DNA of 64,000 bases from Nothopassalora personata. Lineage: Eukaryota; Ascomycota; Dothideomycetes; Mycosphaerellales; Mycosphaerellaceae. Under the pieces are notes generated by a model that saw nothing but the letters and a program-made list of their open reading frames with translations, searched no databases and was not told where the DNA came from. Position 1 is the stretch's first letter, and the number at the start of each line of letters is the position of its first letter. The stretch spans positions 3,658,001 to 3,722,000 of the forward strand of contig CM066290.1 of assembly GCA_033816765.1 (NCBI GenBank), written 5' to 3'. Below are positions 1 to 57,176 of this stretch, in pieces. The translations under genes were made by a program, and so were the position numbers.

Positions 1-2340
1 TACGAATTCTTGGTCATGCCAATGGGACTGACCAACGCACCCGCATCCTGTCAAGACCTAGTCAATGAGACGCTGAGAGAACTTCTTGACGTGTGCGTCA
101 TTGCCTATATGGACGACATCCTCGTCTACACCAAAGGATCACTGCAGAACCACATTAGACAAGTCCAGGACGTCTTCGAGCGCCTCACAAGGGTAGGGTT
201 CAAGACGGCACCAGAAAAATGCGAGTTCCACAAGAAACAAGTTAAATTCCTCGGATTCATCATAAGCACAACAGGAATCCAGATCGACCCGGCAAAGACA
301 CAGTCTATCGAAGAATGGCCGACGCCAGCCAACGTTAAGGACGTACAATCGTTCCTTGGACTCGCAAACTATAACCGCAAGTTCATCAAGGACTACTCCA
401 AAACGGCTGCAGCCATGACTGCACTCACTAGGAAAGACACCAAGTGGACCTGGGGCAACAAAGAACGACAAGCTTTCGAAACACTCAAAAGACAGTGCGC
501 CTCAGCACCAACACTTCGACTATTCGACGGAACAAAGGAAGTCCAAATCGAAACGGACGCATCGGACATGGCCATAGGCGCATGCCTTACACAAGAACAC
601 GATGGGAAAAGACACCCAGTGGCCTATTACTCAAGAAAAATGACACCCGCGGAACAAAACTACGACATCCATGATAAGGAACTTCTCGCTATTGTCGCTG
701 CAATGCAGCACTGGAGAGTATATGCGGAAGGAGCACCTAAGCTGACGATTCTTTCTGATCACAAGAATCTCACTTACTTCACTACAACGAAAGTACTGAC
801 CCGAAGACAGGCCCGCTGGTCGGAATTGCTCGGACAGTACAAGTTTGAAATCCGCTATACCGCAGGAAAAGACAACGGCAGGGCCGACGCACTGAGCCGA
901 AGAAGCGACTACATGGAAGGAAAGGAACCAGTGCGACAACAAGTACTTAAGACTAATCCAGATGGAAGTCTAAGCGCCAACACAAAGGAGTTCAACAACA
1001 TAGTGCGCGTTCTTCAGGACACAGAAGAACAGTTCCCACTAGCACAAGGAAGATACCAAGTACCGAAAGGACGAGAAGAGGAATGCATACGACAACATCA
1101 CGACAACCCGATGTACGGACATCCTGGAACCACAAAGACTCTCGAGATCATACAACGCAGCTTCTCATTCCCACAAATGAGACAAAAGGTATTGAACTAC
1201 ATTAAGCAATGTGTTCACTGTCAACAAAATAAGGCTGCACGACACGAGAAGTATGGACAAATACAGTTCAGGACACCACCGACACAACCATGGGACGAGG
1301 TCACGATGGACTTCATTACGAAACTTCCCATATCCACGGACAAGGCGACAGGCACGGAATACGACATGATACTGGTCATGGTCGATCGCCTAACGAAATA
1401 TGCACACTTTATACCTGCCTGCGAGACATACACGGCAGAGCAACTCGGTTATCTCGTTCTCGACAAGCTAGTACGATACCACGGATTCCCAAAGGTCTTT
1501 ATCACAGACCGAGACAAGCTGTTTACATCCAACTACTGGAAGACTCTTGTAGCGGAAATTGGTATACAACACAAACTGTCTACGGCATATCACCCACAAA
1601 CGGACGGACAAACTGAGAGAGCAAATCAAACCTTGGAACAATACCTACGACACTACGTCAACTACGCACAAGACAACTGGGTATCACTCCTACCCATGGC
1701 ACAACTTGCACTGAACAATCACAAATCAGAAACAACAGGCGAAACACCTTTCTTCGCAAATTTCGGAAGACACCCTACGCTGTTCGGTGACAAGAGAGAT
1801 CACCCACAAGCGGAAAGGGCTATCGCCACAACGGAAGACCTAAGAGAGGTACACAAATCCGTCAATAAACGAATTCGGGACTCGCAGCAACGACTCACTG
1901 AATCTCGTCGAAAACAACAAATGGCACCTCAGCTAAAGAGGGGGGATAAAGTCTACCTTCTTACAAAAAACCTCAAGACACGAAGGAAGACCAAGAAACT
2001 GGATCATGTGAAAGTCGGGCCATTTCTCGTTGAAGAATCACGAGGACCAGTCAACTACCGACTACGACTACCAAAAGATGCCAAAATCCATCCAGTGTTC
2101 CACATCTCCGTGCTGGAACCAGCAGACCCCAAAACGCCATGCCAGGAAACATTCCACTACCAACCAGAAGAGGAAACTGAATTCGAAGTCGAAAAAATCC
2201 TGGACAAGAGAGGTCAGCGATACCTTGTCAAGTGGAAAGGATACGACAACTCAGAAAATACCTGGGAACCGAAAAAACACCTACGAAACTGTCAACAGAA
2301 AATCAAGGATTACGAGAGAAGGAAGAGACCTACCACCTAA
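1..2340 (+). CDS. Ty3/gypsy chromodomain retrotransposon pol, intact, 5' part outside window
   Basis: C-terminal 779 codons of a gypsy polyprotein, open from the first base. The frame enters in reverse transcriptase; the catalytic box reads AYMDDILVY (bases about 103-129). RNase H follows (ETDASDMAIGACL near residue 184, then NYDIHDKELLAIV), then integrase with an HPGTT...C-x2-C zinc domain and catalytic D (TMDFIT), D (ITDRDKLFT) and E (QTDGQTERANQTLE). A GPF-type module (KVGPFLVEE) and a terminal chromodomain (YLVKWKGY...NTWEP) complete it. It would copy the element RNA, integrate the cDNA and target chromatin marks. There are no internal stops and CpA/TpG use is normal, so this copy has escaped RIP, unlike every other gypsy pol here. 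Its stop overlaps that of the antisense gene. Gag, protease and 5' LTR lie upstream of the window. The sense protein starts before base 1; no in-window start applies. Confidence 0.95.
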   Translation, partial: YEFLVMPMGLTNAPASCQDLVNETLRELLDVCVIAYMDDILVYTKGSLQNHIRQVQDVFERLTRVGFKTAPEKCEFHKKQVKFLGFIISTTGIQIDPAKTQSIEEWPTPANVKDVQSFLGLANYNRKFIKDYSKTAAAMTALTRKDTKWTWGNKERQAFETLKRQCASAPTLRLFDGTKEVQIETDASDMAIGACLTQEHDGKRHPVAYYSRKMTPAEQNYDIHDKELLAIVAAMQHWRVYAEGAPKLTILSDHKNLTYFTTTKVLTRRQARWSELLGQYKFEIRYTAGKDNGRADALSRRSDYMEGKEPVRQQVLKTNPDGSLSANTKEFNNIVRVLQDTEEQFPLAQGRYQVPKGREEECIRQHHDNPMYGHPGTTKTLEIIQRSFSFPQMRQKVLNYIKQCVHCQQNKAARHEKYGQIQFRTPPTQPWDEVTMDFITKLPISTDKATGTEYDMILVMVDRLTKYAHFIPACETYTAEQLGYLVLDKLVRYHGFPKVFITDRDKLFTSNYWKTLVAEIGIQHKLSTAYHPQTDGQTERANQTLEQYLRHYVNYAQDNWVSLLPMAQLALNNHKSETTGETPFFANFGRHPTLFGDKRDHPQAERAIATTEDLREVHKSVNKRIRDSQQRLTESRRKQQMAPQLKRGDKVYLLTKNLKTRRKTKKLDHVKVGPFLVEESRGPVNYRLRLPKDAKIHPVFHISVLEPADPKTPCQETFHYQPEEETEFEVEKILDKRGQRYLVKWKGYDNSENTWEPKKHLRNCQQKIKDYERRKRPTT

Positions 2341-2978
2341 CCAACATTCGGAGGCTCAACGGGGCCAGCACTCCACTCGGGGAACTGGACACCAGTTATA
2401 AGACCCCAAGTGGAGGGGGAAACCTGTTCCCCAAAAACGCTGCCAAACTCGGAGAAGTCTACGAGCACCTCGCTACCGGCCGAGGCCGCGGGGGCCTCAG
2501 ACTCTCCTTCCAGACGCTCCATCTCCTCCGCGGTGGACAAAGCCCTCTTGAAGGAATTGTCCTCCGTTGATTCCGCGGCACGAAGCTGTTTTCGCAGCCG
2601 GCGGGCCTTCGCACGGGCAGCTGCCACCTTCTGCTGAGCCGCTGCTATCACCCTCTCGGCCTCTTCTTCTGCTTCGGACAGAGCGTCCTCCGCCTCTTCC
2701 GCACTCCTGGACAGCGACTCCCGGATCTTGGCCATCTTCTCGAACTCCTGAAGAGTGACCCGGAGATCACACTTCTTGTGAGCGTCGTTGCACGCCTTGC
2801 AACGACCGGACCGAGCGTCGACACGACACTCCTGGCCCTGGCGACGACACCGACTGCACGAGACGGGCATAATGGACTGGAACCGGCGAGAACGAGAAAG
2901 GGCGTTAATGGTTTCCGCGTAGATATCAGAAGAAGACGAAGGGCGAAGAGGCATCGTGAGCCATGATGACGAAGACAT
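2337..2978 (-). CDS. Antisense Zn2Cys6-like coiled-coil protein inside gypsy element
   Basis: 213-residue protein encoded opposite to pol, between the pol stop and the polypurine tract. I chose the ATG at 2978 because its context is CCACCATGT and two other copies also begin MSSS; a longer frame to 2996 would need GTG. Six cysteines at about 41, 44, 51, 60, 63 and 70 have spacing C-x2-C-x6-C-x8-C-x2-C-x6-C, which fits the fungal binuclear zinc cluster family. A long Glu/Ala/Arg-rich coiled coil spans about residues 76-160, followed by an acidic/hydrophobic tail. Known Zn2Cys6 proteins are nuclear DNA binders that often dimerise through a coiled coil just after the cluster; that role here is inference. 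Its TAG stop (2337-2339) overlaps the pol TAA (2338-2340). A diverged copy at 56619-57176 conserves Cys spacing and position, so it is a genuine element gene. Confidence 0.8.
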   Translation of the reverse strand: MSSSSWLTMPLRPSSSSDIYAETINALSRSRRFQSIMPVSCSRCRRQGQECRVDARSGRCKACNDAHKKCDLRVTLQEFEKMAKIRESLSRSAEEAEDALSEAEEEAERVIAAAQQKVAAARAKARRLRKQLRAAESTEDNSFKRALSTAEEMERLEGESEAPAASAGSEVLVDFSEFGSVFGEQVSPSTWGLITGVQFPEWSAGPVEPPNVG

Positions 2979-3029
2979 GGTGGGGAAAGCGATCACAACT
3001 ATAAAAGGTAGCTCGGGACGAGCTAGGCT

Positions 3030-3042
3030 AAGAGGGGGATGG
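3030..3042 (+). other. Polypurine tract before 3' LTR
   Basis: Purine-rich AAGAGGGGGATGG immediately precedes the LTR start TGTTACGG. It would prime plus-strand cDNA synthesis. The related element at 56141-63022 has the same GGGGGATGG tract next to its LTR, on the minus strand. Confidence 0.8.
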
Positions 3043-3184
3043 TGTTACGGTATGACAACACCGCAAAGGAAAACATCCTGGCACGGGTCACGTGCAAAAG
3101 ATGTATGCGCGACTGTTACGGTATGACAACACCGCAAGGGAAAACATCCTGGCACGGGTCACGTGCAAAAGATGTATGCGCGAC
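3043..3184 (+). repeat. 71-bp tandem duplication at LTR start, with CGG-N10-CCG sites
   Basis: Two 71-bp copies (3043-3113, 3114-3184) differing at one base. Each begins TGTTACGGTATGACAACACC and contains CGG-N10-CCG (3048-3063; 3119-3134) and one GTCACGTGC E-box-like palindrome. Position at the start of U3 suggests an upstream activating region. Confidence 0.85.
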
Positions 3185-3526
3185 GTCCGCGACGCCTGAC
3201 TGGGGACGACTCGTCGCGCATAGCGCGAAAGACGTACCCGCGACATGAGCGACGTCCGCGACGGTAGCGACGAGCGCACTTGTCGCAGAAGGCGCACATG
3301 GCGCGAAAGGACAGCCAAGACTGGCAAATCTCCTTTGTATTTAGGAACGCTGAGAATCCCTTATGGCTTCGACTGCGTTCAACTCATGTTACGATCTCAC
3401 TGATTGGAATACACTCTTACTCCAATTATTCATCTTCGCTCAGTTTGCTTTAGCCTCTCCAAAGAATACCGCCACGTGACTTGACTTATCTCTCTTTTGA
3501 GATTAGCCCTGGAACGAGACATAACA
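3043..3526 (+). repeat. 3' LTR of the intact gypsy element
   Basis: A 484-bp LTR starting TGTTACGG and ending GACATAACA, directly after the polypurine tract. Its 3' half matches the minus-oriented LTRs at 56141-56527 and 62636-63022 (shared block around CGTGACTT...CTCTCTTTT), so it is the same broad family. The 5' part holds a tandem duplication with CACGTG motifs and a GCGCGAAAGAC repeat. The flank after 3526 starts TATAC; the 5' LTR is outside the window, so the TSD cannot be checked. Confidence 0.85.
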
Positions 3527-3667
3527 TATACCTACGACCTTATAGTCGTAGATAAACTAAATCTTACCTTCTTCTATAGACACCTTACGCGTGTTAGGTT
3601 TAGTATAACCTATAATCTTACTAAGCTAGCTAATAAATTAGGTAACCTTCGTTCGATCGAGATTTTG
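3527..3667. other. RIPed flank resembling the large element's ORF region
   Basis: No gene. The stretch resembles 23635-23700 of the large LTR element (shared core TCGTAGATAAACTAAA...CTTCTTCTAT), so the intact gypsy probably landed in an older copy of that element. A small frame here is not convincing coding sequence. Confidence 0.45.
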
Positions 3668-4883: not shown

Positions 4884-4956
4884 CTATCTCCCTCTTAGCC
4901 TAGCTTTGTTCCGAAGCTTTATAAGCTAATCTTATGTCCCGCGGTAATAGCTAACT

Positions 4957-5957
4957 ATATCTTCGTCTTCTTATAAACGCCGTTAACGACTTACTCTAGA
5001 TATCGAGTCCTCCGATTTAGAAATAGCCCCGTGTACGAATTGTTAGAAGTCGCGATCGTCGGGCGCGGTAGTAAAGTATATCGTAGGTTCTCGTTCTAGG
5101 AAGTATTCGACTTATATCCGTAAAGTGTAACGGTCAGCCAATCACGTGCGAACAGTGAAAGGCAAAGTGACCGATTGCGCCACCGGTGGCGCAATCGGTC
5201 ACTAATCGGTCACTTTGCCTTTCACTGTTCGCACGTGATTGGCTAACCGTTACACTATCTACGGACCTACCCGGGTTCGAGTCCCTTACTCGAGCTCACA
5301 TTCATAGCGGTTACTGCACGGCTAAGCTAGTAAGGCAGCGCACGTGCAAGCAGCGATAAAGCGCGATACCCGGCCTCTGTCGCGTCGCTAGCGTGCGCAC
5401 TACGGTTAGATCTAGTACGAGCTAGGAGTGCTAAGACCTAAGAAACAGGTGCAGATTGCGACCGGTGAATGGGGGCATGTTATTAGGTGGTTGGCGCGGC
5501 GGCCTGGTCGTAAGGACACGCCCTTTAGACGGGAGGGGTAGTGTCACGGGCCCGGCCCGGCGACCCGGCGACGGCCCGCGCAACCGTTGAACCTTACTGA
5601 GTAGCGAACAATCTACGGACCCCGGTCCGTAGATACTGCCTTTTGCGCGCCGGTGGCGCAATCGGTTACTTTGCCTTTTACTGTTCGCACGTAATTGGCT
5701 GACCGTTACATAAAGGCTATAAAGACTACGACGTACGTCTCTCTTATCCGGAGTAGGAGCGTCTTCGCGATTCTCGCGATAAGCTTAAGTTAGAGCTAGA
5801 GAGGATTAAGGAGGAGGAGGTACGACTAAAGATACGTAAGATTCGTCTCTTAAAGCAATTACGGTTAGTCGAGCGTCGTACCGATAATGCTATCGCTAAA
5901 GAGTTAGAAGAGCTTAAGGAGGAGGAGGCGCGCAAGGAGCTAGCGTCTCTTAAATAG
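4957..5957 (+). pseudogene. RIPed antisense Cys/coiled-coil ORF, split by an inverted-repeat element
   Basis: Relic of an ORF antisense to the neighbouring pol (6335-9486). The start reads ATA where the related copies have ATG; the N-terminus (SSSYKRR) matches the copy at 40993-41415. It keeps CTNC, then a GSRSRK...YIRKGYKDYDV block in which several cluster cysteines now read Tyr. After the insertion comes a 75-residue Lys/Glu/Arg-rich coiled coil (LKLELERIKEEEVRLKIRK). The TIR element at 5126-5710 sits inside, with TAAAG duplicated. Stops are TAA/TAG at expected Trp/Gln positions. The Cys order is the same as in the intact gene, but the spacing after the second Cys is longer. Confidence 0.65.
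5126..5710. mobile_element. 585-bp terminal-inverted-repeat (foldback) element
   Basis: Ends TGTAACGGTCAGCCAAT... and ...TTGGCTGACCGTTACA form inverted repeats of about 60 bp, flanked by the 5-bp duplication TAAAG (5121-5125, 5711-5715). Removing the insert restores homology with the copy at 40993-41415. The left end holds a nested palindrome (5126-5254) made of two facing terminal repeats. The interior (5255-5650) is GC-rich with normal CpA, so it arrived after most RIP. It contains a perfect Pol III B-box match (GGTTCGAGTCC, about 5274-5284) and a hairpin ATCTACGGACC/GGTCCGTAGAT near 5611-5634. No transposase is visible; the superfamily is unclear. Confidence 0.7.
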
Positions 5958-6147
5958 TCATTAGGGATAGAGGTGTTACCCCCTCTAGCCTTATTCTTAG
6001 ACATCCTAGAGATGCTAGTAAATAACTAGGCGGCACTCTCTAGAGCGGAGCCCTAGAACGACTCTCTAGGGTAAGAACCTCCTATAGCTTCTTAATCCGT
6101 CGTTATAAGTAATATAAGTTTATAAGTTCCCTCTGTTTTTATTAATT

Positions 6148-6334: not shown

Positions 6335-9300
6335 TAGCCTTATAGTATTCCTAGATTTTCTACTAATAGTTATATAGATTCTCTTTTAATTCCTAGGTAT
6401 TTTCTAAATCGTCGTATCCTTTCTATTTAATAAGGTATCGCTAACCTCTTTTACCTAGGATCTTCTCGACTTTAAATTCGTTTTCTACTTCTAGCTCGAA
6501 ATGGAAGCTTTCTTAGCAAGGTGTTTTAGCGTCTACGGGTTCTAACTTAGAGATATAGAAGACCGAGTAGATTTTTGCGTCGGGTAGTAGACGTAGGCGG
6601 TAGTTAAGTAGTCCTATAACTTTATCGATAAAAAATAGTCCGACCTTAATATAATCTAGTTTCTTAGTCCTTCTCCTTGTCCTAAGGTTTTTTATAAAGA
6701 GATAGACCTTATCCCCCTCTTTTAGTAGAGGTACTATTTCTCTCGTGTCTTGCCGTTATTAAGACAAGTTTTGTTATATATCTTTAATCGCCTTACGTGT
6801 TTCTTTATATACTTCCTTATAAGAGTATCCGTTGTTACGATCGCTCTCTCGGCCTATAGGTAGGACCTAGGTGTTCTAAATAGGTTAGGATCTTTACTAA
6901 AGTTCGTATAAAATAGTATCGTTAAAGTTGTCTCCGATTTAAAGTTATTTAGTATAATCTACGCTATTAGTAGTAATAAAACCTAGTTGTCTTATACGTA
7001 GTTAATATAATGTCGTAGGTATCGTTCTAGCGTCTAATTTATCCTTTTAGTCTATCCGTCTATCTCCGGATAATATACTATTAATAGCTTATATTTAATT
7101 CCGATCGTTCCTATAAGCGTTTTCTAGTAGTTTAATATAAATAACTTGTCTCTATCTATTATAAACGCTTAGGGGAATCCGTAGTATTAGATAAGTCTAT
7201 CTAGTATAAGGTATCTAAGCTACTCTATATTATATGTTTCCGATATAGGAATAAAGTATACGTATTTTATAAGTCTATTAACTATAACTAGTATTATGTT
7301 GTATAGTTGTTTCGTAACTTAATCTCTTAACGGTAGGAGTTTTATAATAAAGTCTATTATAACTTCGTCCTATAGTTTTGTCGGTAGTACCCTAAACTAT
7401 AGGTAACTATATTTTGTATGTCTCGTAGTCTTGTTTCGCTAGCAGTACACGTACTGTATTCCTTACTACTATTAAATAATCGAAGCGTAGGGGCTAAAGC
7501 GTATTGTTCCTTAAGTTTTTTAAACGCTTTAATTTGTTCCTTTCCCTGTTTCTAGTTAACGTCTTTTCTCATAAGCATCGTTATTAGTGCCGCTGTTTTT
7601 ACGTAGTCTTTAATAAATTTCCGGTTGTAATTAGCGAGTCTAAGGAATAATTATACGTTCTTAACTGTTTTTAGTTCTAGCTATTCTCTAAGTAACTATG
7701 TCTTTGTAGGGTCGATTGTTATCTCTATAGTGCTAATAATAAAGCCTAAGAATTTAACTTCCTTCTTATAGAATTTGTATTTTTAGGTACTGTCTTAAAT
7801 CCTAAACGTATAAGTCGTTCGAAGACGTCCTAGACTTGTCTTATATGTTCCTATAGGGATCCTTTTGTATAGACTAGTATGTCGTCTATATATATAATAA
7901 CGTGTACGTCGAGTAGGTCTCTAAGTGTTTCGTTAACGAGGTCCTAGTAGGATGCCGGTACGTTAGTTAATCCTATTAGTATAACTAAGAATTCGTAGAG
8001 TCCGTATCTTATCCTAAAAGCGGTTTTCTATTCTTCTCCTTCTACTATCCGTATAGCGTAGAAGGCATCTTATAGGTTAATCTTCGTATACTAGTCTAAT
8101 CCGGTTAATCTATCTTATGCTTCTTTAATGTTAGGTAGCGGGTATCGGTTCTTAATTATAATCTCGTTTAACTTCCTATTGTCTTATACGAGTTATAACT
8201 TCCGGTTTGCTTTTAGAACGAATATATATAGAGCTCCTACGCTTAAGCTAGACCTTCTTATCTATCCTTTAGCTAGCTTCTCCTTTAGCTATTCTCGTAG
8301 GGTTGTTAGCTCTTTCTTAGACATTTAATATAGGGGTCCCTATAGAGGCTCTTTCCCTAGCTAAATGTTTATCTTATAATCCTATAGTTAATACTTAGGA
8401 AGGGCTTCCTTACCTCTCTCCTCTTTAAAGAGTCGCGACTACTTACGATACTCCTTAGGAATACTTAACTCTAAAATATTAGTATCCTTCGATAGTACGT
8501 TACTTCTATTACTTCTAGTAACTTCGTAACCCGGCGGCCCTACGCTAGTGTCTATCCCGGTCGAAGGTAGTTCTTCTATCCTTCTAGTTAGCGTAAGCTA
8601 TATTCTATTTAGCTGTTTCCTTACCTTATCTACTAGTAAACGCTACTACTATATAGGCTAAATGTAGATAACGTAGTCGTATTCCCTAAATATAAGTACT
8701 CCTCTTCTCTAGTCAATTACTAGATTATGCTTTCTCAACTAAGGTTTACCTAGTACGATATTATAACTAGCTATATTAGTAATATCTAAGATAATTTCCT
8801 CGTAGTACTATTAGATTACTAGTAGTAGCGGTATCGTCTCTTACTCTATACTAGGTAAGGATAATCCGTCTACCGCGATTAATTTATACCCTTTGTCTTT
8901 CTTTTAAGTTACGATTCCTTTAGTCCTTATAAATGTTTCGGAGGTAAAATTCCCGCTCGCTCCGGAATTAATTATAACCTTAGTCCTATAACTATTAACG
9001 ATTACTTATATTCGGAAGACTACTTATACTATCGGTAATGCTTAAGCCTTTTCTATATTATATAACTCCTTTCGGTCGCTTATTCCTAAGGAGTCGATCC
9101 TTTTCCCTATTTGTATATAAAACGTCGTACTTCGTATATTAAGGCCTCCGCCTAAACCTAGCGCGATCCTCTCTATATCCGTATCTATTTTTAGTAACGT
9201 TCTTAGATCTTCTACGTTTCTAAGTAGAGTACGCGTATATATTATACTATATTACGTAGTTTATTTAATATAAATATTCCTAACGGTATAATATATCTAG

Positions 9301-14606: not shown

Positions 14607-17600
14607 AGTCGAAAGCTAGAACTAGGAGATAAAGAAGTACTAGTAAAGGGGTAGAACGTAGTTAAGAGTTCTATAAATAGGAATCTTATATATACTAACG
14701 TACTCCTAAACGAAAGTTACGGAACGTTTACCCTTATCGATAAAGGATGTATATACTACGCTACAATTAACGGAGACTTAGCGAAAGGCCTCGGTCTCAC
14801 GTATGTTAGTAACGAGAGCCGTAAGGCTATAGGGTTTACGAAGGCGATACGGAACTCGATCGAAGGAGTAGTCGCCTTCCGCATAGAAATTACCGGGATC
14901 TACTAGGTGGTTTATGCTTATGTCGTGCCTAATCTAGACTTTCCTATAATTCTAGGGAACCTATAGAAGGCGCATAATTAGATCCGGACCGCGCCTAAAA
15001 AGCGCCGGTACTACTATAGCTTAGTAAAGAAATAGGTACCCGAAGGACGTAACTACGAAGAACACGAGTCGGGTAAGCGTTTCGCTACGATTGCCGCGGC
15101 AACCGTAGAAGATATTAAGAAAGCCCTTAGTAAGAAGGAGCCGCCTACGCGAGAGGAACTTAAGAAGGGCTTACCTCTAGAACTTTAGGATATGTTACCG
15201 CTGTTTTCTACTAGGGAAGCTAATAAGCTAGCTCCGTACCGCGGCGACCTTAACTATAAGATCGAGATACGGACGAAAGCCGACGGAAGCCCGGAACCAT
15301 TACCCTAGGGACCGCTCTATAGCATGTCTAAAGACGAGCTACTTATCCTCCGGAAGTTACTAACGGAACTATAGCGTAAGGGTTACATTCGCTCTTCGAC
15401 CTTAGAAGCGGCGGCTCCCGTCTTATTCGTAAGGAAGCCCGGGGGAGGACTTAGGTTCTACTATGATTATAGAGCATTAAACTCGATTACTAAGTAGGAC
15501 CGTTATCCGCTACTATTAATCCCGGAAACTATTCGGAACCTAACGGGCGCTAGATAGATTACGAAGGTAGACGTTGTTACCGCATTCCACTACCTTCGGA
15601 TAGCTCGAGGCGAAGAGTATAAGACGGCTTTTTGAACTAGATTTGGTCTATAGGAGTGGCTAGTATGTCCGTTTGGTTTGTCCGGGGCCCCTATAACATT
15701 CTAGCGGTACATTAAAGACAATGTGAGTAGATTGATGTATTAAGAGAGATCTACGAAGTCGCGAGAAAGTAAGATAAGCTAAGAAAAGTAGGTACCTTAG
15801 GTAGCTAGGGCCTTAGCATCTAAGAAGTGCTTAGGACAAGCATTAAGTATTAACAGTTTATTACGGGACTACCTAGACGACTTTACATCGGCCTACGCTA
15901 ACGACGTCGTTATTTACTCCGACGGAACAAAAAAGGACTATTTCTAGAAGGTTCGTATCGTGCTCTAGAAGCTTTAGGACGGAGGCCTTTTCCTAGATCT
16001 AGGGAAGTATAAGTTCGTATAGAAGAAGGTTAAGTACCTCGGGTTTATTATACATGCCGACGGGATAGGAGTAGGACCCGACCCCGAGAAGGTAGTAGTA
16101 GTAAAGGACTAGAAGGCACTAGTTACCTAGAAGGAAGTGCGGCGTTTCTTAGGCTTCGCGAACTACTACCGGATATTTATTCTAAACTATTCGAAGCTTG
16201 CCGAGCCCTTAACGTCGCTAACCGGCAAGAACAAGGTGTTTTCCTAGGGAGATCGTTAGGCTAATGCGTTTAAGTCCCTAAAGGATAAGTACTATAAAGC
16301 ACTAGTTTTAGCCTACTAGAACCCGGAGCTCCCTACCTTTTTAGAGACGGACTGCAGCGGCTTTACGCTTAGAGGCGCCCTCCTATAAGAAAAGGACGGA
16401 GTCGTAAAACTAGTAGGATTCTACTCGAAGAAGCTTAATAAGGCTAAGATTAACTACGACATTCACGATAAGGAGATACTCGCGGTAGTGTCCTATCTTA
16501 AAGAATAGGCTCCCGAGTTAAAAACATGTAGGCCCTTTATAATCTAGACGGACTATAAGAACCTAGAATACTTTATAACGAAGAGACAGCTTTCCGAACG
16601 GTAGATCCGGTAGGTTAAGGAAGTTGTAAAATTCTAGTTTTTACTAGTGTATAGGCCGGGCACCGAGGCGATTATGCCGGACGCCCTTTCTCGAAGGGAG
16701 TAGGATACACTTAGGTAGGACGACAAGTTATTACGGTATCGCAGGTTTCTTAAACCGGACATCGTAAAGAATTAGCCGGGCTCGAAGGTAGTAGACGTTA
16801 GCTCGACTATAAAGGTTTCGTTAGTACGAATCTTAGCTACGCAGTTCAAAGGACTATCCGCTATAGAAGAGGCGGATTCACCGGGCGTACTATAGGGACC
16901 CTTCTAAGACTAAGAGCTAAACGACCTCTAGGAAAGAACTATCGAGAAGAATAGCACGTTCTAAGCGGTACACCGCGCGATTAAGGTAGGAGCGCGTTCA
17001 CTTCCTAGCGAGGTAAACTCAAGGTGTAAGTAGGTAACTATAGCATCGACCGTAACGGGTATCTTCGCTACCGCGGTAGGATTTAGGTGCCTAGAGCTCC
17101 TAGTTCTACGGAGTCCGACTATAAGGAGGCGGATATAGCGATTCTATAGAACGACACCCTTCGAACTAAGCTAATCTAATCCGTGCACGATTTACCGGTA
17201 TACGGCCACCCTAGCCGGGACTCTATAGTATCGATACTAAGTCGCAACTTCTACTAGCCCCTATAGTCTAAGTACGTAAGGCAGTTCTTAAGGAACTATA
17301 ACTACTACGGTAGGAATAAGGTGTAGAGAGAATAAAAACACGGCCTCCTACAACCCTTACCGGTCCCCGACCGATTCTTCTAGGAGATCTCGATGGATTT
17401 TATAACGGACATGCCCGAGTCGTAAGGGAATACTTACCTCTAGGTAATTAAGGATCGACTAAGCAAGACCGTCGTTTTAGAAGCGATACCTACTATAAAA
17501 GCCGAGGACTACGCTAAAAGGTTCTTAGACTACTAGGTAAGATACTACGGCCTCCCTTAAGCTATTACGAGTAACCGGGATACTAACTAGACGAGTACCT

Positions 17601-18470
17601 TCTAGAGGACCTTCTATCGTTTAACCGGTGTAAAATAGAGGCTTAGCTCCGCCTACTACCTATAAACCGACGGAGGCCCGGAACGGTTAAACTAGGAAGT
17701 CTAGGCTTACCTCCGTAACTACATTAACTATAAGCAGTCCGACTAGAAACGCTAGCTCCCCACGGCGCAACTTGCTCTAAACGCGCGGTATTACGCTAGG
17801 CTAGGAATAAGCCCCTTCTTCGCGGTATACGGATACGAGGCACTATTACCCGTTTAGTTATAACCGGACCTAGAGACCTCTTAGTTAGACGCCGCGTAAC
17901 GGGTAACGCTATTCGTAGAAAGGATATAAAGGATCACGGACCTGTATTAGGCGAGTATAGCGGAAGCCGCCTAAAAATAGGAGGACTACGCTAACCGGGA
18001 TAGGAAGCCCGCACTAATCTATCGTATAGGCGATAAAGTTTAGCTAGATCTACGTAACTATGTCACTATACGACTAAAGAAGAGCCTCGACTATAGACAC
18101 GCAAAGTATACGGTAGTAGAAGTGATCTTACCGTTGTCTATACGCTTGTCTAGGATCCCCGACGGGATCTACCCGGTCTTCTATCCTAACTTACTACGAC
18201 CTGTAAGCTAAGACCCCTTACCTAGATAGGAGATCGATAATAAACAGCCGGACCCTATAATAATTGAGTCTTACGAAGAGTAGCAGGTAGAAGAGATCCT
18301 TTACGCTAGAACTAAGGTTAGAGGTAGAGGCCGAGTACGTGAAGTCCTAGTAAAATAGACCGGATACTACAAGCCTACATAGGAACCATTAGGGTACCTC
18401 GCGGACATAGCAGCCGCGGATAACTTCGAGAAGAGATATAGTAACCTAATAACGCATAACGGACCGAAGG
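14607..18470 (+). pseudogene. RIPed gypsy pol nested in the large element
   Basis: PR-RT-RH-IN-chromodomain in order: protease-like FTLIDKGC (about 14725), RT entry (PEPLPWGPLYSMSKDE-like, about 15290), [19 protein letters not shown] (about 15395), active-site region AYANDVVIYSDG (about 15895), RNase H (INYDIHDKEILAVV, about 16450), integrase with MDFITDMPES (about 17392), chromodomain (VLVKWTGYYKPTWEP-like, about 18345). TAG stops replace Trp/Gln throughout. RT carries a 135-nt in-frame insert (15723-15857). Sequence near the left junction (14570-14606) recurs at 19732-19770, placing the insertion within the host element's RT/RNase H. Confidence 0.8.
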
Positions 18471-27316: not shown

Positions 27317-28510
27317 ATGGACACTGGAGCCGACGGTGCGCCCGAAGGCGTGCAACCCGACAACGACGCTCCATTCAACTTCAGCGAGTATGACGACGTA
27401 CCTACGGACGCAGCAGGCTACGCAACCTGGACTGCCGCCAACCCCGAGCTCGCCTTCCGCCTCCTTCGACGCACGTACACCTCCTTTGAGAACACGGCAA
27501 ACCAGGCACAGGAAGCAATCAACAAGAGTAACGAGAAGACTGCTCAGATCAACAACCTCCAAGGCATCCTTGATCACATCAACCGTACCCAGATAGGAGG
27601 GGGCGGTAATGGTAGTGGTCATCCTCGAGTTAGCAAGAAGGTCAACGACCCGGACGAGTTCACAGGAGACAAGAGCAAGTACGAGGCTTTCACAACCCAG
27701 CTTACTGTCAAGCTTCTAGCCAATGGTGATCACTTCCTGACTGAAGAACACAAGATGGCCTACGTCTTCTCCCTCCTTCGTGACAAGGCACTCGACCAGG
27801 TCCGGCACTACATCGACTCTAGCACACAGTCTCTTACCTGCCCCAACACCGCTACTCTTCTCAAGGATCTTGCTGCTGCTTTTGGCGACCCAGACCGTCG
27901 CGCAACTGCCCAGCAGAACATCGCCAACCTCCAGCAGAAGAACAAGAGCTTCCTCGACTACTACTCGACCTTCTCCCGTGAGATTGGGTACACCGGCTAT
28001 GACGAGGAGGCCAAGCGATCTCTGTTGTACCAAGGCCTCTCTGCAGAACTTCTTCACGCACTCGAAGACAAGGACGTCAAGGACATGACCTACCAGGAGC
28101 TCGCAGCTAAGTGCCAGGCCCTCGACTCGAACATGAAGCGTACCAACGCAATCCTCGCTGCCCGCGGTAACGGCAAGCAACCCCGTAACCCGGCTAGCAC
28201 CTCCACCCCTCCGGGCCCTGTTCCTGGCCCTCTAGTCCGCGCAGCTACCGCTCCTCCAGCTACTAGCGACCCGATGGACCTCTCCGCAGGTGCTGCTACC
28301 CCTCGAGTCCAAGGACTCGTAGGTGGAAAGCTGACTGCTGAAGAGAAGATCCGTCGCCGCCAGAATGGCCTCTGCTCGTACTGCGGTGGCGCTGGCCACA
28401 TCGCTGTTACTTGCCCAAACCTCGCTGCTCGCAACGCTCGCGCTACCACTCATGCTGCTGCTCAGATTGAGGCTGCTCCAGCTGGTCCTACCAACCAGGG
28501 AAAAGCCTAG
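27317..28510 (+). CDS. Retrotransposon gag with CCHC zinc knuckle (left arm)
   Basis: 397 residues, intact. The N-terminus is acidic (MDTGADGAPEG). A central capsid-like region carries DPDEFTGDKSKYEAF and FSLLRDKALDQVRHYI, typical of gag of Ty3-like fungal elements. A Pro/Ala linker leads to a zinc knuckle CSYCGGAGHIAVTC (C-x2-C-x4-H-x4-C, residues about 355-368). The product would assemble virus-like particles and bind element RNA. The start ATG is the first after the LTR. The pol frame lies -1 relative to gag and is open past the gag stop; see 28498-28504. The right arm repeats the gene in reverse. Confidence 0.92.
   Translation: MDTGADGAPEGVQPDNDAPFNFSEYDDVPTDAAGYATWTAANPELAFRLLRRTYTSFENTANQAQEAINKSNEKTAQINNLQGILDHINRTQIGGGGNGSGHPRVSKKVNDPDEFTGDKSKYEAFTTQLTVKLLANGDHFLTEEHKMAYVFSLLRDKALDQVRHYIDSSTQSLTCPNTATLLKDLAAAFGDPDRRATAQQNIANLQQKNKSFLDYYSTFSREIGYTGYDEEAKRSLLYQGLSAELLHALEDKDVKDMTYQELAAKCQALDSNMKRTNAILAARGNGKQPRNPASTSTPPGPVPGPLVRAATAPPATSDPMDLSAGAATPRVQGLVGGKLTAEEKIRRRQNGLCSYCGGAGHIAVTCPNLAARNARATTHAAAQIEAAPAGPTNQGKA
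28498..28504 (+). promoter_or_regulatory. Candidate -1 ribosomal frameshift heptamer GGGAAAA
   Basis: In gag phase it reads G GGA AAA, fitting X XXY YYZ. It lies three bases before the gag stop (28508-28510). A -1 slip enters exactly the frame that carries protease. Confidence 0.45.
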
Positions 28511-28923
28511 GTCTTCTTCCAAGTCGCGAAGAAGACCTTCTACGTGTTGAACAGGAAGGAAAGAAGAGAAAGGCTTTACGACTCAACGTGATTGAGCTAT
28601 TTGATGACGGCGATGGCAAGATTTCTAAGCCATTCCTCGCCGAAGTACAGATAGGCTCAAAATTGAAGAATCCTAAACAACTTTCTACTACTTCCTTCCT
28701 GGATACCGGCGCCCTGACGGAGACATTCATGGACCCTGAATGTGCTTCTCGTCATAAGTTGAAGCTCCAAAAACTCAGATACCCTCGTACCTTGCTTATG
28801 TTTGACGGTACTCCCTCCGCCGAGAAGATCACTCATGTTGTTCACACAACAGTGACTCTCGCAGGAAGGACAATGCCCGTCATGGCATATATCTCGAAGC
28901 TCCCGAAGTACCAGTTCGTCCTT
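28511..28923 (+). CDS. Truncated pol: aspartic protease fragment in the hairpin loop
   Basis: Frame open from the gag end, in -1 phase. It contains the catalytic core SFLDTGALTETFMDPECA (about 28700-28750) and a distal ISKLPKYQFVLFG, typical of retropepsins of LTR elements. Translation then runs into the inverted arm at 28924 and continues as an unrelated chimeric frame to 29253, which I exclude. RT and everything downstream is missing, so the enzyme cannot act as part of a full polyprotein. The frame has no convincing ATG; expression would need frameshifting. Confidence 0.75.
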
Positions 28924-30026
28924 TTTGGGCAAGTAACAGCGATGTGGCCAGCGCCACCGCAGTACGAGCAGAGGCCATTCTGGCGGCGACGGATCTTCTC
29001 TTCAGCAGTCAGCTTTCCACCTACGAGTCCTTGGACTCGAGGGGTAGCAGCACCTGCGGAGAGGTCCATCGGGTCGCTAGTAGCTGGAGGAGCGGTAGCT
29101 GCGCGGACTAGAGGGCCAGGAACAGGGCCCGGAGGGGTGGAGGTGCTAGCCGGGTTACGGGGTTGCTTGCCGTTACCGCGGGCAGCGAGGATTGCGTTGG
29201 TACGCTTCATGTTCGAGTCGAGGGCCTGGCACTTAGCTGCGAGCTCCTGGTAGGTCATGTCCTTGACGTCCTTGTCTTCGAGTGCGTGAAGAAGTTCTGC
29301 AGAGAGGCCTTGGTACAACAGAGATCGCTTGGCCTCCTCGTCATAGCCGGTGTACCCAATCTCACGGGAGAAGGTCGAGTAGTAGTCGAGGAAGCTCTTG
29401 TTCTTCTGCTGGAGGTTGGCGATGTTCTGCTGGGCAGTTGCGCGACGGTCTGGGTCGCCAAAAGCAGCAGCAAGATCCTTGAGAAGAGTAGCGGTGTTGG
29501 GGCAGGTAAGAGACTGTGTGCTAGAGTCGATGTAGTGCCGGACCTGGTCGAGTGCCTTGTCACGAAGGAGGGAGAAGACGTAGGCCATCTTGTGTTCTTC
29601 AGTCAGGAAGTGATCACCATTGGCTAGAAGCTTGACAGTAAGCTGGGTTGTGAAAGCCTCGTACTTGCTCTTGTCTCCTGTGAACTCGTCCGGGTCGTTG
29701 ACCTTCTTGCTAACTCGAGGATGACCACTACCATTACCGCCCCCTCCTATCTGGGTACGGTTGATGTGATCAAGGATGCCTTGGAGGTTGTTGATCTGAG
29801 CAGTCTTCTCGTTACTCTTGTTGATTGCTTCCTGTGCCTGGTTTGCCGTGTTCTCAAAGGAGGTGTACGTGCGTCGAAGGAGGCGGAAGGCGAGCTCGGG
29901 GTTGGCGGCAGTCCAGGTTGCGTAGCCTGCTGCGTCCGTAGGTACGTCGTCATACTCGCTGAAGTTGAATGGAGCGTCGTTGTCGGGTTGCACGCCTTCG
30001 GGCGCACCGTCGGCTCCAGTGTCCAT
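28842..30026 (-). CDS. Retrotransposon gag, inverted copy (right arm)
   Basis: Mirror image of 27317-28510. The first 373 or so residues are identical, through the zinc knuckle CSYCGGAGHIAVTCP. After 28924 the frame reads antisense protease sequence and ends at 28842, so the C-terminus is chimeric and the native gag/pol junction is lost. Start and upstream LTR (30064-30565) are those of the left arm. Transcription from this LTR would make RNA complementary to the left gag. Confidence 0.85.
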   Translation of the reverse strand: MDTGADGAPEGVQPDNDAPFNFSEYDDVPTDAAGYATWTAANPELAFRLLRRTYTSFENTANQAQEAINKSNEKTAQINNLQGILDHINRTQIGGGGNGSGHPRVSKKVNDPDEFTGDKSKYEAFTTQLTVKLLANGDHFLTEEHKMAYVFSLLRDKALDQVRHYIDSSTQSLTCPNTATLLKDLAAAFGDPDRRATAQQNIANLQQKNKSFLDYYSTFSREIGYTGYDEEAKRSLLYQGLSAELLHALEDKDVKDMTYQELAAKCQALDSNMKRTNAILAARGNGKQPRNPASTSTPPGPVPGPLVRAATAPPATSDPMDLSAGAATPRVQGLVGGKLTAEEKIRRRQNGLCSYCGGAGHIAVTCPKRTNWYFGSFEIYAMTGIVLPARVTVV

Positions 30027-30063: not shown

Positions 30064-30565
30064 TGTCAGGGCGAAAGCCTGGCTTGGAACTGAGGGTGAA
30101 AACTGAAATGCAAATGCGAAGTGCAAGTGCAAAAGGTATGGTCTAGTAGCTACACAGAACGAAAGACGAAGAGGAGAAGAGAGGCCTGGGGGAAGGCCGA
30201 CTATTTAAACCCCCGCGTTGCGCGTGCGCGTCCCTACATCACCGTAAATAGCCGGGCCCTGGGGTGAGTCACAAACCTTATTCCTAGCCACCCCACATCT
30301 CGCACCTTCCACGTGCTCCCATTCACCCCTCGGGTACTCGCGGGTCTTCTCTAAGTCGCGGGCGGTGATGTAGTGAAGACCCGAAGTGAATCCCTCAACA
30401 GGTACTCGAGATATCGTATGCTGGGGCTGGGTCCCGCAGTGAATCTTGTCGGGCATGTGATTCTTTGCAATCACATGCAAACTTGAACATTCACTTCCAG
30501 TCTCTCTTGGGCCAGAAGGCTTCTCAGCACCTACACTCTGTATCACCTGAGGAGAGACCGTGACA
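30064..30565 (-). repeat. LTR of the inverted element, right
   Basis: Exact reverse complement of 26778-27279, ending CCGTGACA at 30565 where LINE ORF2 sequence resumes. Confidence 0.65.
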
Positions 30566-33500
30566 TGCTGTCCTTCGATAGATAGGAAGAGAATAGGGAA
30601 GGCCGCTACCCTTAGTTTTCTAGTCCTAACTTCGGTATATAGACGACATCCTTGGAGGAGGTGAATTGGAGTCTCTTTTTGGCCGCAGCGGCATCTATCG
30701 TCGTCTGTTTTGTGGAACCGGTAAAGGTAGTCGCGGAAGAAACCGTGTCCTAAACGTAAGGAGTAGTAGGCGCTCGAGGTAGCCCTCTCGCATTGTATTT
30801 GCAGCGGGAGGTATTCTTCATATTGAAACCGAGAGAAGTAGCTGTTCGGGCCGTGCTCCTTCTTAGTCTTTGCCTTGTAAAATCGGTCTCTAGTAGCCTT
30901 AGCTACTAGGTCGGTAAGGTAATCTTCGTCGGTTATACTAAGCGACTTGTCGGTTATACTAAGCGACTTGTCGGTTATACTAAGCGACTTAAAGGTCTCT
31001 AGTCTTCTTTGGATCCCCTGGAGTTTGGAGCCTTCTTTAGGCGGTAAAAGCTCGTAGCCCGTCTCTAATACCCTTTTCGTAGCTATTGGGATAGTACTAC
31101 TTAGGGCCCTAGCAATCGGGTTGTCTTCGGGAAGCTTCTTTAGCCTTAAGCTATATTTGAGGACCTGGCGTTCTAGGCGAATTCGAGGGGTAAGGAGGTT
31201 TGCTTCTCTCTCGGCAGGCTCGGTAGGAGTAGTACGGAAGACCCCTAGGACTTTACGAATGCCTTTTCCGTGTATAGCCTCTAGGGGGGTAATAGCTCTC
31301 CTCGATTTCCACCAAACCGGCGCCCCGTAGTCGGCTACGGTAGTAACGCAAGAAAGGTATAGTGTGCGTAGGGAGCGAGTGCTTAACCCATTCCCTATAT
31401 TCGCTAGGCGGTTCATCCTATAGAAGGAGGCAAGTGCCTTAGTTGCTCGGATTTGAATATGTTCTTTAAAGGTAAGATAGGTATCAAACCAGATCCCTAG
31501 CCATCGTACGGCCTTTGTCGCGGGTTTAATAACTTCCCCGCTTGGTAGGGTAATAGAACTATCGTGTCCTTTGCCTTTTGCGAAGTGTAGGAGCTCGGTT
31601 TTAGCGAGGTCAAATTCTATCGCTTGTTCGGCTCCTTTCTTCGTTAAGAGCTTAACCTCTTTCTCGAGGGTCTTTGCGTTCTTCTTAAGGCTAGTCGATG
31701 CAACTAGGAGTCCAATATCGTCGATGTAGGATAAGGGAGTTACGGTTTTAATGTCCGTAAAGAGATCCCTTATATAGATAAGAAATAAAATCGGCGAGAT
31801 TGGACTACCTTGCGGTACGCCTGTCTCAACGTCCGTGGTCTCTTCTATTTGTCCGTTAAAGGATAGTTGAATCCTCCGTTCTTCGAGGAAGGACTTAGCC
31901 CACCTTATAACCGAGTAGGGGAGTCGTAGCTTAATTAGTGTTCTTAGGAGGCGGTTCTTCGCTACGTGGTCGAAGGCTCCTTTAACGTCTAGAAAGGCTA
32001 CGCTTGTCTTCTTTCCTTTTACTCGGTTCCTTTCGACAAAGTCGGTTAGGAGGAGGGCTGTGTCTACGGCCGAACGTTTAGTTCTGCCGCCCATTTGCGA
32101 GTCGTGAAGTAACGGGCCGGTATCGGCTAGAGCTCCGAGTCTTTTCGCTAGTATTCTCTCGCTTACTTTCCCTAGACAGTTAAGGAGGGCTATTATCCTA
32201 TATGCCTTAGGAATCGAGTAGTCGGGCTTCCCTGGTTTTGCAAGAGTAAATCCAATCGCTACTCGCCAGCACTTAGGGTGGTACCCTTCGTTTAATAGCG
32301 AGCCGTAGACCTTAAGAAAGGCGTCTGGAATAGCTTGAAATGCGCGTTGAATTATTGCTTGGGTTATACCATCCAGGCCTGGGGTTTTACCTTTTACTTT
32401 CGAGGAACTACATGCCGATTGCAGTTCTTCTAATTGTATTCGGTCCCAGTCCCAGTCCCCTATAGGATAGTTATCCCAGGAGGGGTCTAGGGGGTTATCC
32501 GGAGGTGGAGAAGGGAATAGCGTTCCCCGGAGGGCCTCGCATTTTCCCTTAAATGTGTCCTGTCCGTTTATAGTCGGGATTAGACTGTTCCCTCCTACTT
32601 TTGTATAGGAGAAGGCCTTATAGACCGACGTAAGATCGGTCTTTTGGAGGAACTTGTTCCAATGGTCTCGCTTAGCGTTTTTGATAGCTAGGAAGTATTT
32701 ATTCCTTGCGCCTAGGTACGCTTCTTTATCGGTGCGTAGAGTAGATGCTAGGGGGCTAGCTAATTTTCGACGTTCGCGAGATGTTTGTTTACGAAGTTCT
32801 TTAAGTTCCGGCGTCCACCACGGTTTAGACTTAGCTACTACCCTAAGTTTAGGGATATATAGTTTAGCCGCGGTAGATATAATGTCGGAGAAGGTGCTCG
32901 CTAGTAGGTCTAGGTCTTCTATACCTTCTAGATCTACTTTCCGATCCTTTAGTACTTGAGAAAAGCCTTTCCAATCTGCTTTAGACGTGTCGAAGCGTAG
33001 TCTATCGCTAGGAGGGGGTAGGGGTAGAGAGGAAGTATTACTTCCTCTAATGTCTAGAGAGATCGCTAGGTGGTCGGATCCGGTCTCTAGCGTACGCCAG
33101 TTTATCTCCGAGTTAGATAACCTACCTTTTGTAAAGGTAAGGTCTAGGACACTCGGGTTATTTAGGTGTACTCGGTAGAAGGTTCCTATATTCGGGGTAT
33201 TTCTTAGAGAGAAGTTGTTTGCTTCAATCCAGTTAATAAAGGTTAAAGCTCGTAAGCTATTATCCTTTCCGTATGGATCCCACGACGGGTGTCGTATATT
33301 AAAGTCGCCGAGTAACACCGTATTTGTTGCCGGCGTAAATTGGTATAGGGCTCTTTCGTTCGTCCAGACATTCTCGCTATCTTTTTCGTTGTAGACATTA
33401 AGAATTTGGATCGAATTCCCCTTCTTGTCCTTTGCGGATATTACTTGAAAATCCGGGTCCCTGTTTTGAACCGGAGTAATTTCGACTTGGATTTGTCTAC

Positions 33501-40992: not shown

Positions 40993-41415
40993 TTACGGGG
41001 ACGCCCGCTTAAGAGACGCTAGCTCCTCGCGCGCCTCTTCCTCCTCGAGCTCCTCTAACTCCTTAGCGACGGTATCGTCGGTACGACGCTTAGCTAATCG
41101 TAGCTGTTTCCGAAGACGGATCTTACGTATCTTTAGCCGTACCTCCTCCTCTTTAATCCTCTTAAGCTCTAGCTTAAGCTTATTGCGCGAATCGCGAAGA
41201 CATTCCTACTCCGGACGAGAAAGATGCACGTCGTAATCCTTATAGCCTTTTCGAATATAGGCTAAACACTTCCTAGACCGAGAACCTACGATATACTTTA
41301 CTACCGCGCCCGAGGATCGAGACTTCTAACAATTCGTATATAGAGCTATTTTAATACTAGAGATTTTAGTATCTAGAGCAAGTCGTTAACGGCGTTTATA
41401 GGAGGAAGAAGACAT
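40993..41415 (-). pseudogene. RIPed antisense Cys/coiled-coil ORF
   Basis: 141 codons from ATG 41413-41415 (MSSSSYKRR) to TAA 40993-40995 with three internal stops. It contains a TNC...GSRSRKCLAYIRKGYKDYD block, with cluster Cys partly replaced by Tyr, and a basic/acidic coiled coil (LKLELKRIKEEEVRLKIRK to the end). It matches 4957-5957 almost throughout and lacks that copy's TIR insertion. It sits antisense to the pol at 37400-40745, just before the 3' LTR. Confidence 0.7.
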
Positions 41416-41488
41416 AGTTAACTACTACTATAAGAAATAATAACGGCTTATAGAGCTTCGGGACGAAGCTAGGCTAAAAATAGGATAG

Positions 41489-43781: not shown

Positions 43782-43831
43782 TTTCTAGCGGACTAGTCGC
43801 TAGTAGCGATTAGGCCGTAGGACTTCTTTTT

Positions 43832-44004
43832 AGTCCTATAGTATTCCTAGATTTTCTACTAATAGTTTGATAGGTTCCTTTTTAGTTCCTAGGTACTTTC
43901 TAATTCGTTATATTCTTTCTATTTAATAAAGTATCGCTAATCTTTCTTATCTAGAATTTTTTTAACTTTAAATTCGTTTTCTACTTCCGGCTTAAAATAG
44001 AAGC
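43832..44004 (-). pseudogene. Gypsy pol C-terminal fragment (chromodomain end)
   Basis: Minus-strand pol 3' end homologous to 6340-6510: same TTCCTAGATTTTCTACTAATAG start on plus and chromodomain EFKVKKIL-type sequence. The rest of pol is lost where the LINE begins at about 44005. Confidence 0.6.
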
Positions 44005-56140: not shown

Positions 56141-56527
56141 TGTTATTGTCTCGTTCTAGGGCTAGTCTTAAAAGAGAGATAAGTTAAGTCACGTGGCGGT
56201 ATTATTCTTTAGAGAGGCTAGAGTAAGCTAAGCGAAGATGAATGATAGGAATAAGAGTTGTATTCCAATTAGTGAGATAGTAACATAAGTTGAACGTATT
56301 AGAACTATAAGAGTTTCTAGCGTTCCTAAATATAAAGGAGATTCGCGGCGTAGAGCCTATAGCTTAGTATAATCACCTTAATCAGTCCTACTAAGCATAC
56401 TAATTACACTAACCAGTCCGTGAAGTGATTAGTGTCACGTGCGTCTAGATAATCAGTATCACGTGTCTCTAAGTAATTAGTGTTTCGTGTATCTAGTCGG
56501 GGCTACCGTTTAGACCGAACCGTAACA
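56141..56527 (-). repeat. 3' LTR of the minus-strand gypsy
   Basis: 387 bp, TGTTATTG...CCGTAACA as written on plus (TGTTACGG start on minus). Contains repeated TCACGTG units (about 56415-56490). A polypurine tract on minus adjoins at 56528-56541. Confidence 0.9.
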
Positions 56528-56618
56528 CCATCCCCCTTCTAGCCTAGCTTAGTCCCTTAAGCTTACTTATAACGAACGGTATCCTCTATGTATCCGCGTA
56601 TAGCTTCTTCCCTTTGTG

Positions 56619-57176
56619 ATGCCTATCCACTAACGCCCTTCTAGTACTATCCGTCGCCGCCGTCTCTACGAGTTCGTTAAATCCGCGGGAGAAGTCATAG
56701 TTAAGAAATGCTTAACGTGTGAAAAGCATGGTCGCGTATGCAAGGTGCACATTCGTTCCGGGAAGTGTAGTAAGTGTCTTCGTCGCGGCTAAAGGTGCGA
56801 TGTAAGAGTAACTTAGTCGGAGTTTAAGAGGTTAGTAGAGGAGAAGGCTCGTCTTCGTTAGAAAATCTAGGAGTCTCGGTCCGCTTAGGAGGAGGCGATG
56901 CGGGTTTATAAGAAGGCTCTCGAGGATCTAAAGATTGCTCGCGCGCGCGAGGAGCGCTTACGTTAGTAGATGGATCTAGTGGATCGTCGTGCCGAGGAGG
57001 CGATTTCCGTTAAGGAAAGGGAGATCGAGGAGTAGGAGATAGAAGAGGCTTCTTTACTTCCTTCGGATATCCCTTATAAGGGTCTAGCTCTCAACTTGTT
57101 ACTAGGCACATAGGGTGCTATTAAGGGTCTCGGTAACGAGTTCTAGGAGGTACCCGAACTACTCCCTACTAGTTAA
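56619..57176 (+). pseudogene. RIPed antisense Zn2Cys6-like coiled-coil gene
   Basis: 186 codons from ATG 56619 (MPIH...RPSST, comparable to MPLRPSSSSD in the intact protein) to TAA 57174-57176. The cluster (about 56707-56797) has all six cysteines with spacing C-x2-C-x6-C-x8-C-x2-C-x6-C, identical to the intact gene, plus the shared RSGKC and CDVRV motifs. A coiled coil (RVYKKALEDLKIARAREERLR) follows. It is inactivated by several TAG/TAA codons, one inside the cluster. Its stop overlaps the pol stop of the opposite strand (57173-57175). Confidence 0.8.

Follow-up and report, generated by a model that had tools for sequence, protein, structure and literature searches.

The 64,000-nt stretch of DNA analysed here (the window), positions 3,658,001 to 3,722,000 of contig CM066290.1 in the Nothopassalora personata assembly GCA_033816765.1, opens with the 3′ part of a Ty3/gypsy retrotransposon that carries, antisense between its pol gene and its 3′ long terminal repeat (LTR), an intact open reading frame (ORF), termed here the aORF. 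Judging from its substitution pattern, the aORF is under strong purifying selection, more than a chance ORF would be; it is kept together with gag in elements that have no pol, and it mostly, not always, travels with the U3 region of the adjacent LTR. We put the chances at about even that its product is a Gal4-like, element-specific transcription regulator matched to the U3 of its own element, and control of the LTR by this protein is indicated only indirectly, through the linkage of gene and U3 as one cassette and through arrays of short repeats in U3.

The aORF converges with pol and lies in the interval from the pol stop (2340) to the 3′ LTR (3043-3526), the overlap of the two genes being confined to the stop codons (2337-2340); the ATG of the aORF is 64 nt from the LTR. 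A preliminary description of this DNA had placed it opposite to pol, which was right as to the antisense orientation but not as to a location atop pol, the gene lying downstream and convergent. The intact frame and the exact cysteine spacing given there, C-x2-C-x6-C-x8-C-x2-C-x6-C, were confirmed by direct reading of the 213-aa ATG ORF, and no stop-free frame with Zn2Cys6-like spacing appeared in 30 Markov-shuffled windows. In a protein search of the host genome (54.5 Mb, 40 contigs; best 150 of 391 candidates scored), all 150 scored candidates were aORF matches, among them 16 full-length stop-free copies with a rounded amino acid identity of 100%, and numerous subfamilies with roughly 29–40%. 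Among relatives of the pol C-terminus, the best 109 of 150 listed were examined, the remaining 41 all being stop-laden, and the aORF lay 3′ of pol on the opposite strand in 109 of 109, within 1.5 kb in 79 and paired to divergent aORFs (queries L050 and L051) in the other 30; in the loci read, the 3′ LTR adjoined the aORF. The ratio of nonsynonymous to synonymous divergence (dN/dS, values from 40 of 136 pairs) was below 1 in the pairs computed: among the pairs listed it was 0.039 at a dS of 0.43, 0.083–0.098 at dS 0.74–0.85 and 0.16 at dS 1.85, with higher values in more divergent pairs (up to 0.52 at dS 1.2) and in L037/L041, which includes a truncated copy (0.48 at dS 0.05). The 59 differences between L032 and L035 fell 4, 5 and 50 on codon positions 1, 2 and 3. 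A chance ORF, or a non-coding by-product of some other constraint, can hardly be credited in view of the dN/dS of 0.04–0.16 in the closest informative pairs, the third-position substitutions, the conserved cysteines and the uniform placement, and the earlier view of a shared module was upheld.

Homologues were also found outside this genome. A search of 5.8 billion proteins gave 20 and a profile search 36, 45 distinct in total, with P0043 from Paraphaeosphaeria minitans the only one of organism-named source. The six cysteines were the sole invariant columns both in an alignment of 24 sequences and in one of 49, which excludes 9 of the 45 homologues (five of them with Cys-to-Tyr changes). The expected conservation of the cysteines in relatives from other sources held for 38 of the 45 homologues and failed in seven, all absent from both alignments: four have Cys-to-Tyr changes, two are truncated and one is both truncated and altered. 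In P0016, P0018, P0019, P0045 and P0046, Tyr replaces at least one of the six cysteines, and because a change of TGC/TGT to TAC/TAT yields Tyr, these could be mutated copies, not functional variants. A scan of viral contigs returned 26 pattern-matching stretches and no relatives.

In predicted fold and architecture, the aORF protein is a Zn2Cys6 match, though not a member by hidden Markov model (HMM). Zn_clus domains follow C-x2-C-x6-C-x5..12-C-x2-C-x6..8-C, which the window copy fits. Among 22 genomic subfamilies, 13 have 6 residues between the second and third cysteines and 9 have 11–13, so the exact spacing, previously regarded as defining, is not a family trait; because these 22 loci were chosen by the six-cysteine pattern, their cysteines are not an independent test. 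Against Pfam Zn_clus (PF00172), an HMM check that had been proposed earlier, the window protein reached an E-value of 3.1 and 8.4 bits, below the gathering cut-off of 21 bits; 12 of 24 family members were listed at E ≤ 10 (best 0.72), and scores of as much as 46 bits were obtained for Zn_clus domains of the host. HMM membership was rejected on these below-cut-off scores of the window protein and the members. A weak Zn_clus match at C9:1004678 (17.9 bits, also below cut-off) was seen within a decayed aORF relative (C9:1004603-1005112). In the AlphaFold2 model, the six-cysteine domain adopts a binuclear-cluster fold whose first 13 matches in the Protein Data Bank (PDB) were all Zn2Cys6 domains, none individually significant, with Pho7, Put3, Ppr1, Hap1, Leu3 and Gal4 among the folds matched; one helix, a likely coiled coil, follows over residues 76-158 with high pLDDT in a monomer model. 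A PDB profile search was uninformative (23 matches, mostly coiled-coil or helical proteins, none Zn2Cys6 by name, best E 0.0098). The protein thus shares with fungal Gal4-type factors the CxxC-C-CxxC-C order, the modelled fold, the long helix after the domain and the acidic-aromatic tail, but differs in scoring below the Pfam cut-off, in the 11–13-residue spacing of 9 of 22 subfamilies, in its retrotransposon-antisense setting and in its short length. A Gal4-like layout of basic Cys6 domain, long helix and acidic-aromatic tail is supported, and the transcription-factor-like interpretation of the preliminary description partly so.

The aORF occurs in two kinds of element. Type B LTRs, which contain the block TTTGTATTTAGGA, belong to L001, L031, L038, L051, L054 and L055, with pol beside the aORF in all six, and type A LTRs (CACTATATAGACG) to L020, L032, L033, L035, L036, L037, L039, L040, L042, L057–L061 and L063, at which no pol was detected in the flank that holds it in type B; for L037 and L040 a pol match lies past the LTR, and L050 adjoins a pol and has an LTR not assignable to either type. 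At all 15 type-A loci the gag ORF ends 2–119 nt from the aORF stop, which leaves no space for pol between them, and this is one gag throughout (96.7–99.4% amino acid identity over 257–330 residues), with a Retrotrans_gag match (E 7.8e-11) and a CCHC knuckle. Complete units, where both ends were visible, measured about 2.0–2.2 kb (a tandem pair with a period of 2,137 bp; LTR pairs 2,148 bp apart in the L037 type, 2,048 in L057 and 2,161 in L063). By gene content, type A elements are non-autonomous elements without pol that retain gag and aORF. An element with the aORF as sole gene was considered for type A and rejected, the gag ORF being present. Six consecutive aORF copies at 2,056-bp spacing, apparently a tandem type-A array, lie at G000:C12:1355701-1366457, and other pairs are 2.1–2.2 kb apart.

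On this nearly uniform backbone, the aORF and U3 were highly diverse. Across 105 type-A pairs, gag dS had a median of 0.036 and a maximum of 0.252, whereas aORF dS in the same pairs had a median of 2.00 where finite, was saturated in 36 and fell below 0.5 in one; U3 identity had a median of 0.49, and R-U5 identity a median of 0.92 (78 pairs, the two loci with a different U5, L037 and L059, being excluded). In L057/L058, gag dS was 0 and aORF dS 1.55. The history of aORF, polypurine tract (PPT) and U3 is therefore separate from that of gag. An additional 36 copies, representing 10 aORF types that were assigned from score groups of the search rather than by alignment, were compared, and 32 best matched the U3 of their own type; for one of the 36, L076, the U3 match covered only 54 nt. 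L057 is probably a recombinant, because its four sister copies have a different U3 in common. The L057-type U3 was present at 16 places, with LTR pairs at only two, L057 and L063, and in L063 it is paired with a very different aORF. Both of these are present once only, as is L035, whose gene and U3 match. L063 itself (G000:C9:893034-893549) is a single-copy recombinant in which an x13-type aORF without its usual N-terminus is joined to the U3 of L057.

Most of the U3 regions tested contain repeat arrays. Compared with dinucleotide shuffles, one 6-mer was over-represented in the final 125 bp of U3 in 12 of 20 subfamilies (P < 0.05), and at least five repeats were present in 11 of 20 U3s compared with 2 of 183 aORF control windows. 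The 6-mers often occurred in both orientations (CAGATC 4+4 in L038, AGAGCA 3+3 in L036). For the window type, recurrence gave P = 0.060 over the last 125 bp and P = 0.005 over the whole U3, and the recombinant U3 of L057 gave P = 0.99 against P = 0.002 for the U3 of its sisters. Motifs comprised GCGAC in SF1, the subfamily of the window copy, CTGATC/CTGAGC in L033, L037 and L054, CGACC in L039, L055 and the L057 sisters, and GAGAGC in L032, L035, L036 and L051, with the arrays of L032, L033 and L039 not significant in the 20-subfamily shuffle test; array length differed among copies of one type (L032, L060). Distances between DNA-binding domains (DBDs) correlated with U3 k-mer distances in a Mantel test that used the sisters' U3 in place of L057's recombinant one (r = 0.27, P = 0.004, n = 21, k = 6), and a partial Mantel test controlling for the rest of the protein gave 0.11 (P = 0.13) over the 21 types and 0.19 (P = 0.023) without L063, so the correlation is suggestive only. 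A decidedly improbable account is that the linkage is merely positional, the 3′ end moving as a block by template switching while the aORF acts elsewhere, in host-gene regulation or in an RNA- or Gag-related role; the adjacency of gene and U3 and the non-significant partial test over all 21 types agree with it, but it leaves the U3 arrays and the Gal4-like fold unexplained.

Rather improbable, in our judgement, is an anti-silencing factor like VANC of the Arabidopsis VANDAL elements, which binds noncoding repeat arrays and removes repressive chromatin. According to PMC5735166, VANC targets form tandem repeats that change rapidly, and VANC proteins related to one another have different transposable elements (TEs) as their targets; the arrays studied here likewise vary in length within one type, and the host has a copy marked by repeat-induced point mutation (RIP). 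The window protein, however, had no Pfam match to VANC domains, DUF1985 and DUF287 being absent from its 11 Pfam matches (E ≤ 10). The two systems would be alike in that a TE encodes a factor whose targets lie in repeat arrays and diverge (PMC5735166, PMC10398659), but protein and element class differ, and VANC binding is experimentally established, that of the aORF protein putative.

For the regulator matched to its own U3, we propose the following scheme. The protein, expressed antisense from the 3′ LTR side, would bind zinc and DNA through its Zn2Cys6-like domain, dimerise through the coiled coil and carry the acidic-aromatic tail; it would recognise half-sites that recur in the U3 of its own element, immediately 5′ of the TATA-like block, and binding would raise sense transcription or, less likely, limit it. 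An activator is the first choice because of the acidic-aromatic tail; a repressor and the anti-silencing factor are close rivals, which would likewise profit from exchange. An autorepressor conferring superinfection immunity, which would bind its own U3 and limit its own type so that an element with a new cassette escapes resident repressors, as heteroimmune lambdoid phages do by analogy, appears unlikely: it would account for the coexistence of many cassettes on one gag backbone, many in near-identical bursts, and for the benefit of a borrowed cassette, but the acidic-aromatic tail and the Gal4-like build point to activation.

Going further, the regulator and its U3 operator array could form one cassette of a swappable specificity system, template-switched onto autonomous and pol-less backbones, with some twenty or more mutually deaf types coexisting, an extension that we advance tentatively and hold somewhat less probable than not. 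Retroviral reverse transcription takes the U3 of each LTR from the 3′ terminus of the RNA, so one change of template at a point between gag or pol and the aORF would suffice, and because aORF, PPT and U3 adjoin at that end, it would replace regulator and target together. Pol could be borrowed in trans, unlike a factor that reads the element's own U3, which would be why pol-less elements keep the aORF; the retention of gag would fit RNA-specific packaging.

The carrier is a 7,110-bp Ty3/gypsy chromovirus, with reverse transcriptase, RNase H, integrase, chromodomain, LTRs and PPT, and with gag and protease upstream of the window (Table 1). Since its LTRs are identical over 484 nt and it is flanked by a TATAC target duplication, it inserted recently. 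The 71-bp stretch at the LTR start (3043-3184) is double in some SF1 copies including that of the window and single in L001, L003, L005, L008 and L014-L016; SF1 LTRs carry CGG-N10-CCG at their start, and the presence and spacing of CGG-Nx-CCG differ among subfamilies. A hairpin lies just 5′ of the PPT in 22 of 22 subfamilies, ending 15–21 nt before the 3′ LTR, with unbroken stems of 5–9 bp (15 different sequences, a single G-U pair overall) and G-rich loops (GGA in 10). Stems of at least 6 bp were found in 20 of 22 against 28.5% of shuffles (null mean 5.0), only a modest excess, and the notable traits are the fixed place, the kept loop and the changing stems rather than stem length. One dead SF1 copy, L018 (G000:C1:1076390-1080025), bears a RIP-like signature: of its 189 changes relative to L001 over about 2.15 kb, 184 are C-to-T or G-to-A, and CpA sites account for 171 of the 184.

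Table 1. Coordinates of the aORF, its carrier element and decayed relatives in the window
Feature	Position	Strand	Remarks
aORF, antisense ORF	2337..2978	-	213 aa, intact, ATG at 2978
Six-Cys domain	2769..2858	-	residues 41-70; C-x2-C-x6-C-x8-C-x2-C-x6-C; fold from model
Single long helix, likely coiled coil	2505..2753	-	residues 76-158 (83 residues); AlphaFold2
C-terminal tail, acidic and aromatic	2340..2504	-	residues 159-213; nearly invariant Trp191
pol, 3′ part	10..2340	+	reverse transcriptase, RNase H, integrase, chromodomain; 5′ part outside the window (L065)
Hairpin	3009..3025	+	TAGCTCG-GGA-CGAGCTA
Putative PPT	3030..3042	+	abuts the 3′ LTR
3′ LTR	3043..3526	+	TGTTACGG...CATAACA; 100% identity over 484 nt with the 5′ LTR in L065
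U3 of LTR	3043..3333	+	putative border; 71-bp duplication at start
GCGAC-type repeat array	3179..3305	+	both orientations, inside U3
TATA-like block	3334..3346	+	TTTGTATTTAGGA (LTR type B); at U3/R border, putative function
Target-site duplication	3527..3531	+	TATAC; identical 5 bases precede the 5′ LTR
Decayed aORF relative	4954..6089	+	about 520-bp interruption; opposite pol 6345-7988(-)
Decayed aORF relative	41068..41418	-	opposite pol 38439-40745(+)
Decayed aORF relative	56526..57173	+	all six Cys readable; opposite pol 57187-59508(-)

Copies in at least four other gypsy elements of the window had been reported; we found three, all decayed and each opposite a nearby pol, and detected no aORF by tblastn or cysteine pattern near the more distant pol relatives at 15849-17833 and 49546-52152 or the pol fragment at 43820-44005. 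The insert in the first decayed copy (5120-5650, about 520 bp) has at its start an extended palindrome (around 5128-5256, judged by eye) and is possibly a foldback or MITE-like insertion. Elsewhere in the window, two near-identical, inverted gag-like ORFs (397 and 394 aa, CCHC-like knuckle by eye) occupy 27317-30026, and a pair of overlapping ORFs on the minus strand (1204 and 412 aa), LINE-like with endonuclease and reverse transcriptase as assigned by eye, occupy 30205-34961.

Several parts of this picture are already known separately, namely plant antisense ORFs, target-specific TE factors (VANC) and U3 subfamilies (crapaud). HBZ, a bZIP protein, is an antisense regulatory protein at the 3′ end of an LTR element, in that case an animal retrovirus; the aORF, a putative regulator, resembles it in its antisense 3′-end position, and no homology is claimed. 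HBZ of HTLV-1 is mentioned in PMC11963269, which together with PMC7264820, in the parts of both covered here, describes antisense ORFs at the same place in plant gypsy elements as conserved in most copies and of unknown function, with DNA binding suggested as possible for their TRP28 domain. The aORF shares position, orientation and conservation in most copies with that of the plant Retand lineage and differs in being fungal, kept in pol-less elements, exchanged with U3 and without a TRP28 match: TRP28 (PF04195) was absent from the 11 Pfam matches of the window protein and, for other members, from the 25 of 79 matched families listed. The crapaud gypsy elements of Podospora anserina have U3 in 14 subfamilies, a conserved R-U5 and a mostly homologous internal region; the available text (PMC10787394) leaves the cause of the U3 split open, with RIP escape unsupported, shows only GAG and a pol-domain ORF in its figure legend and does not contain the word 'antisense'. 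U3 subfamilies on a conserved body are common to both. In open-licence PMC literature, as far as covered, we found neither a fungal antisense Zn-cluster ORF, including in PMC3248453, PMC2864245 (whose figure legend includes a further ORF with no assigned function), PMC4522978, PMC3538342 and PMC4112212, nor the Zn2Cys6-like fold, the pol-less retention, the joint U3 exchange or their combination.

What is new is an antisense ORF with a recognisable, predicted DNA-binding architecture and strong purifying selection, together with pol-less elements of about 2.1 kb that retain gag and aORF and show aORF/U3 exchange; the numerous natural combinations of regulator and U3 on an almost uniform gag backbone, with two recombinants sharing one U3, provide a ready-made test. 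If the proposal is true, LTR elements would encode their own target-specific transcription factors, pol-less elements would need the Pol of others but not their transcription factor, and the aORF/U3 cassette would play in retrotransposons the part that immunity regions play in phages, which would explain crapaud-like bursts of U3 subfamilies.

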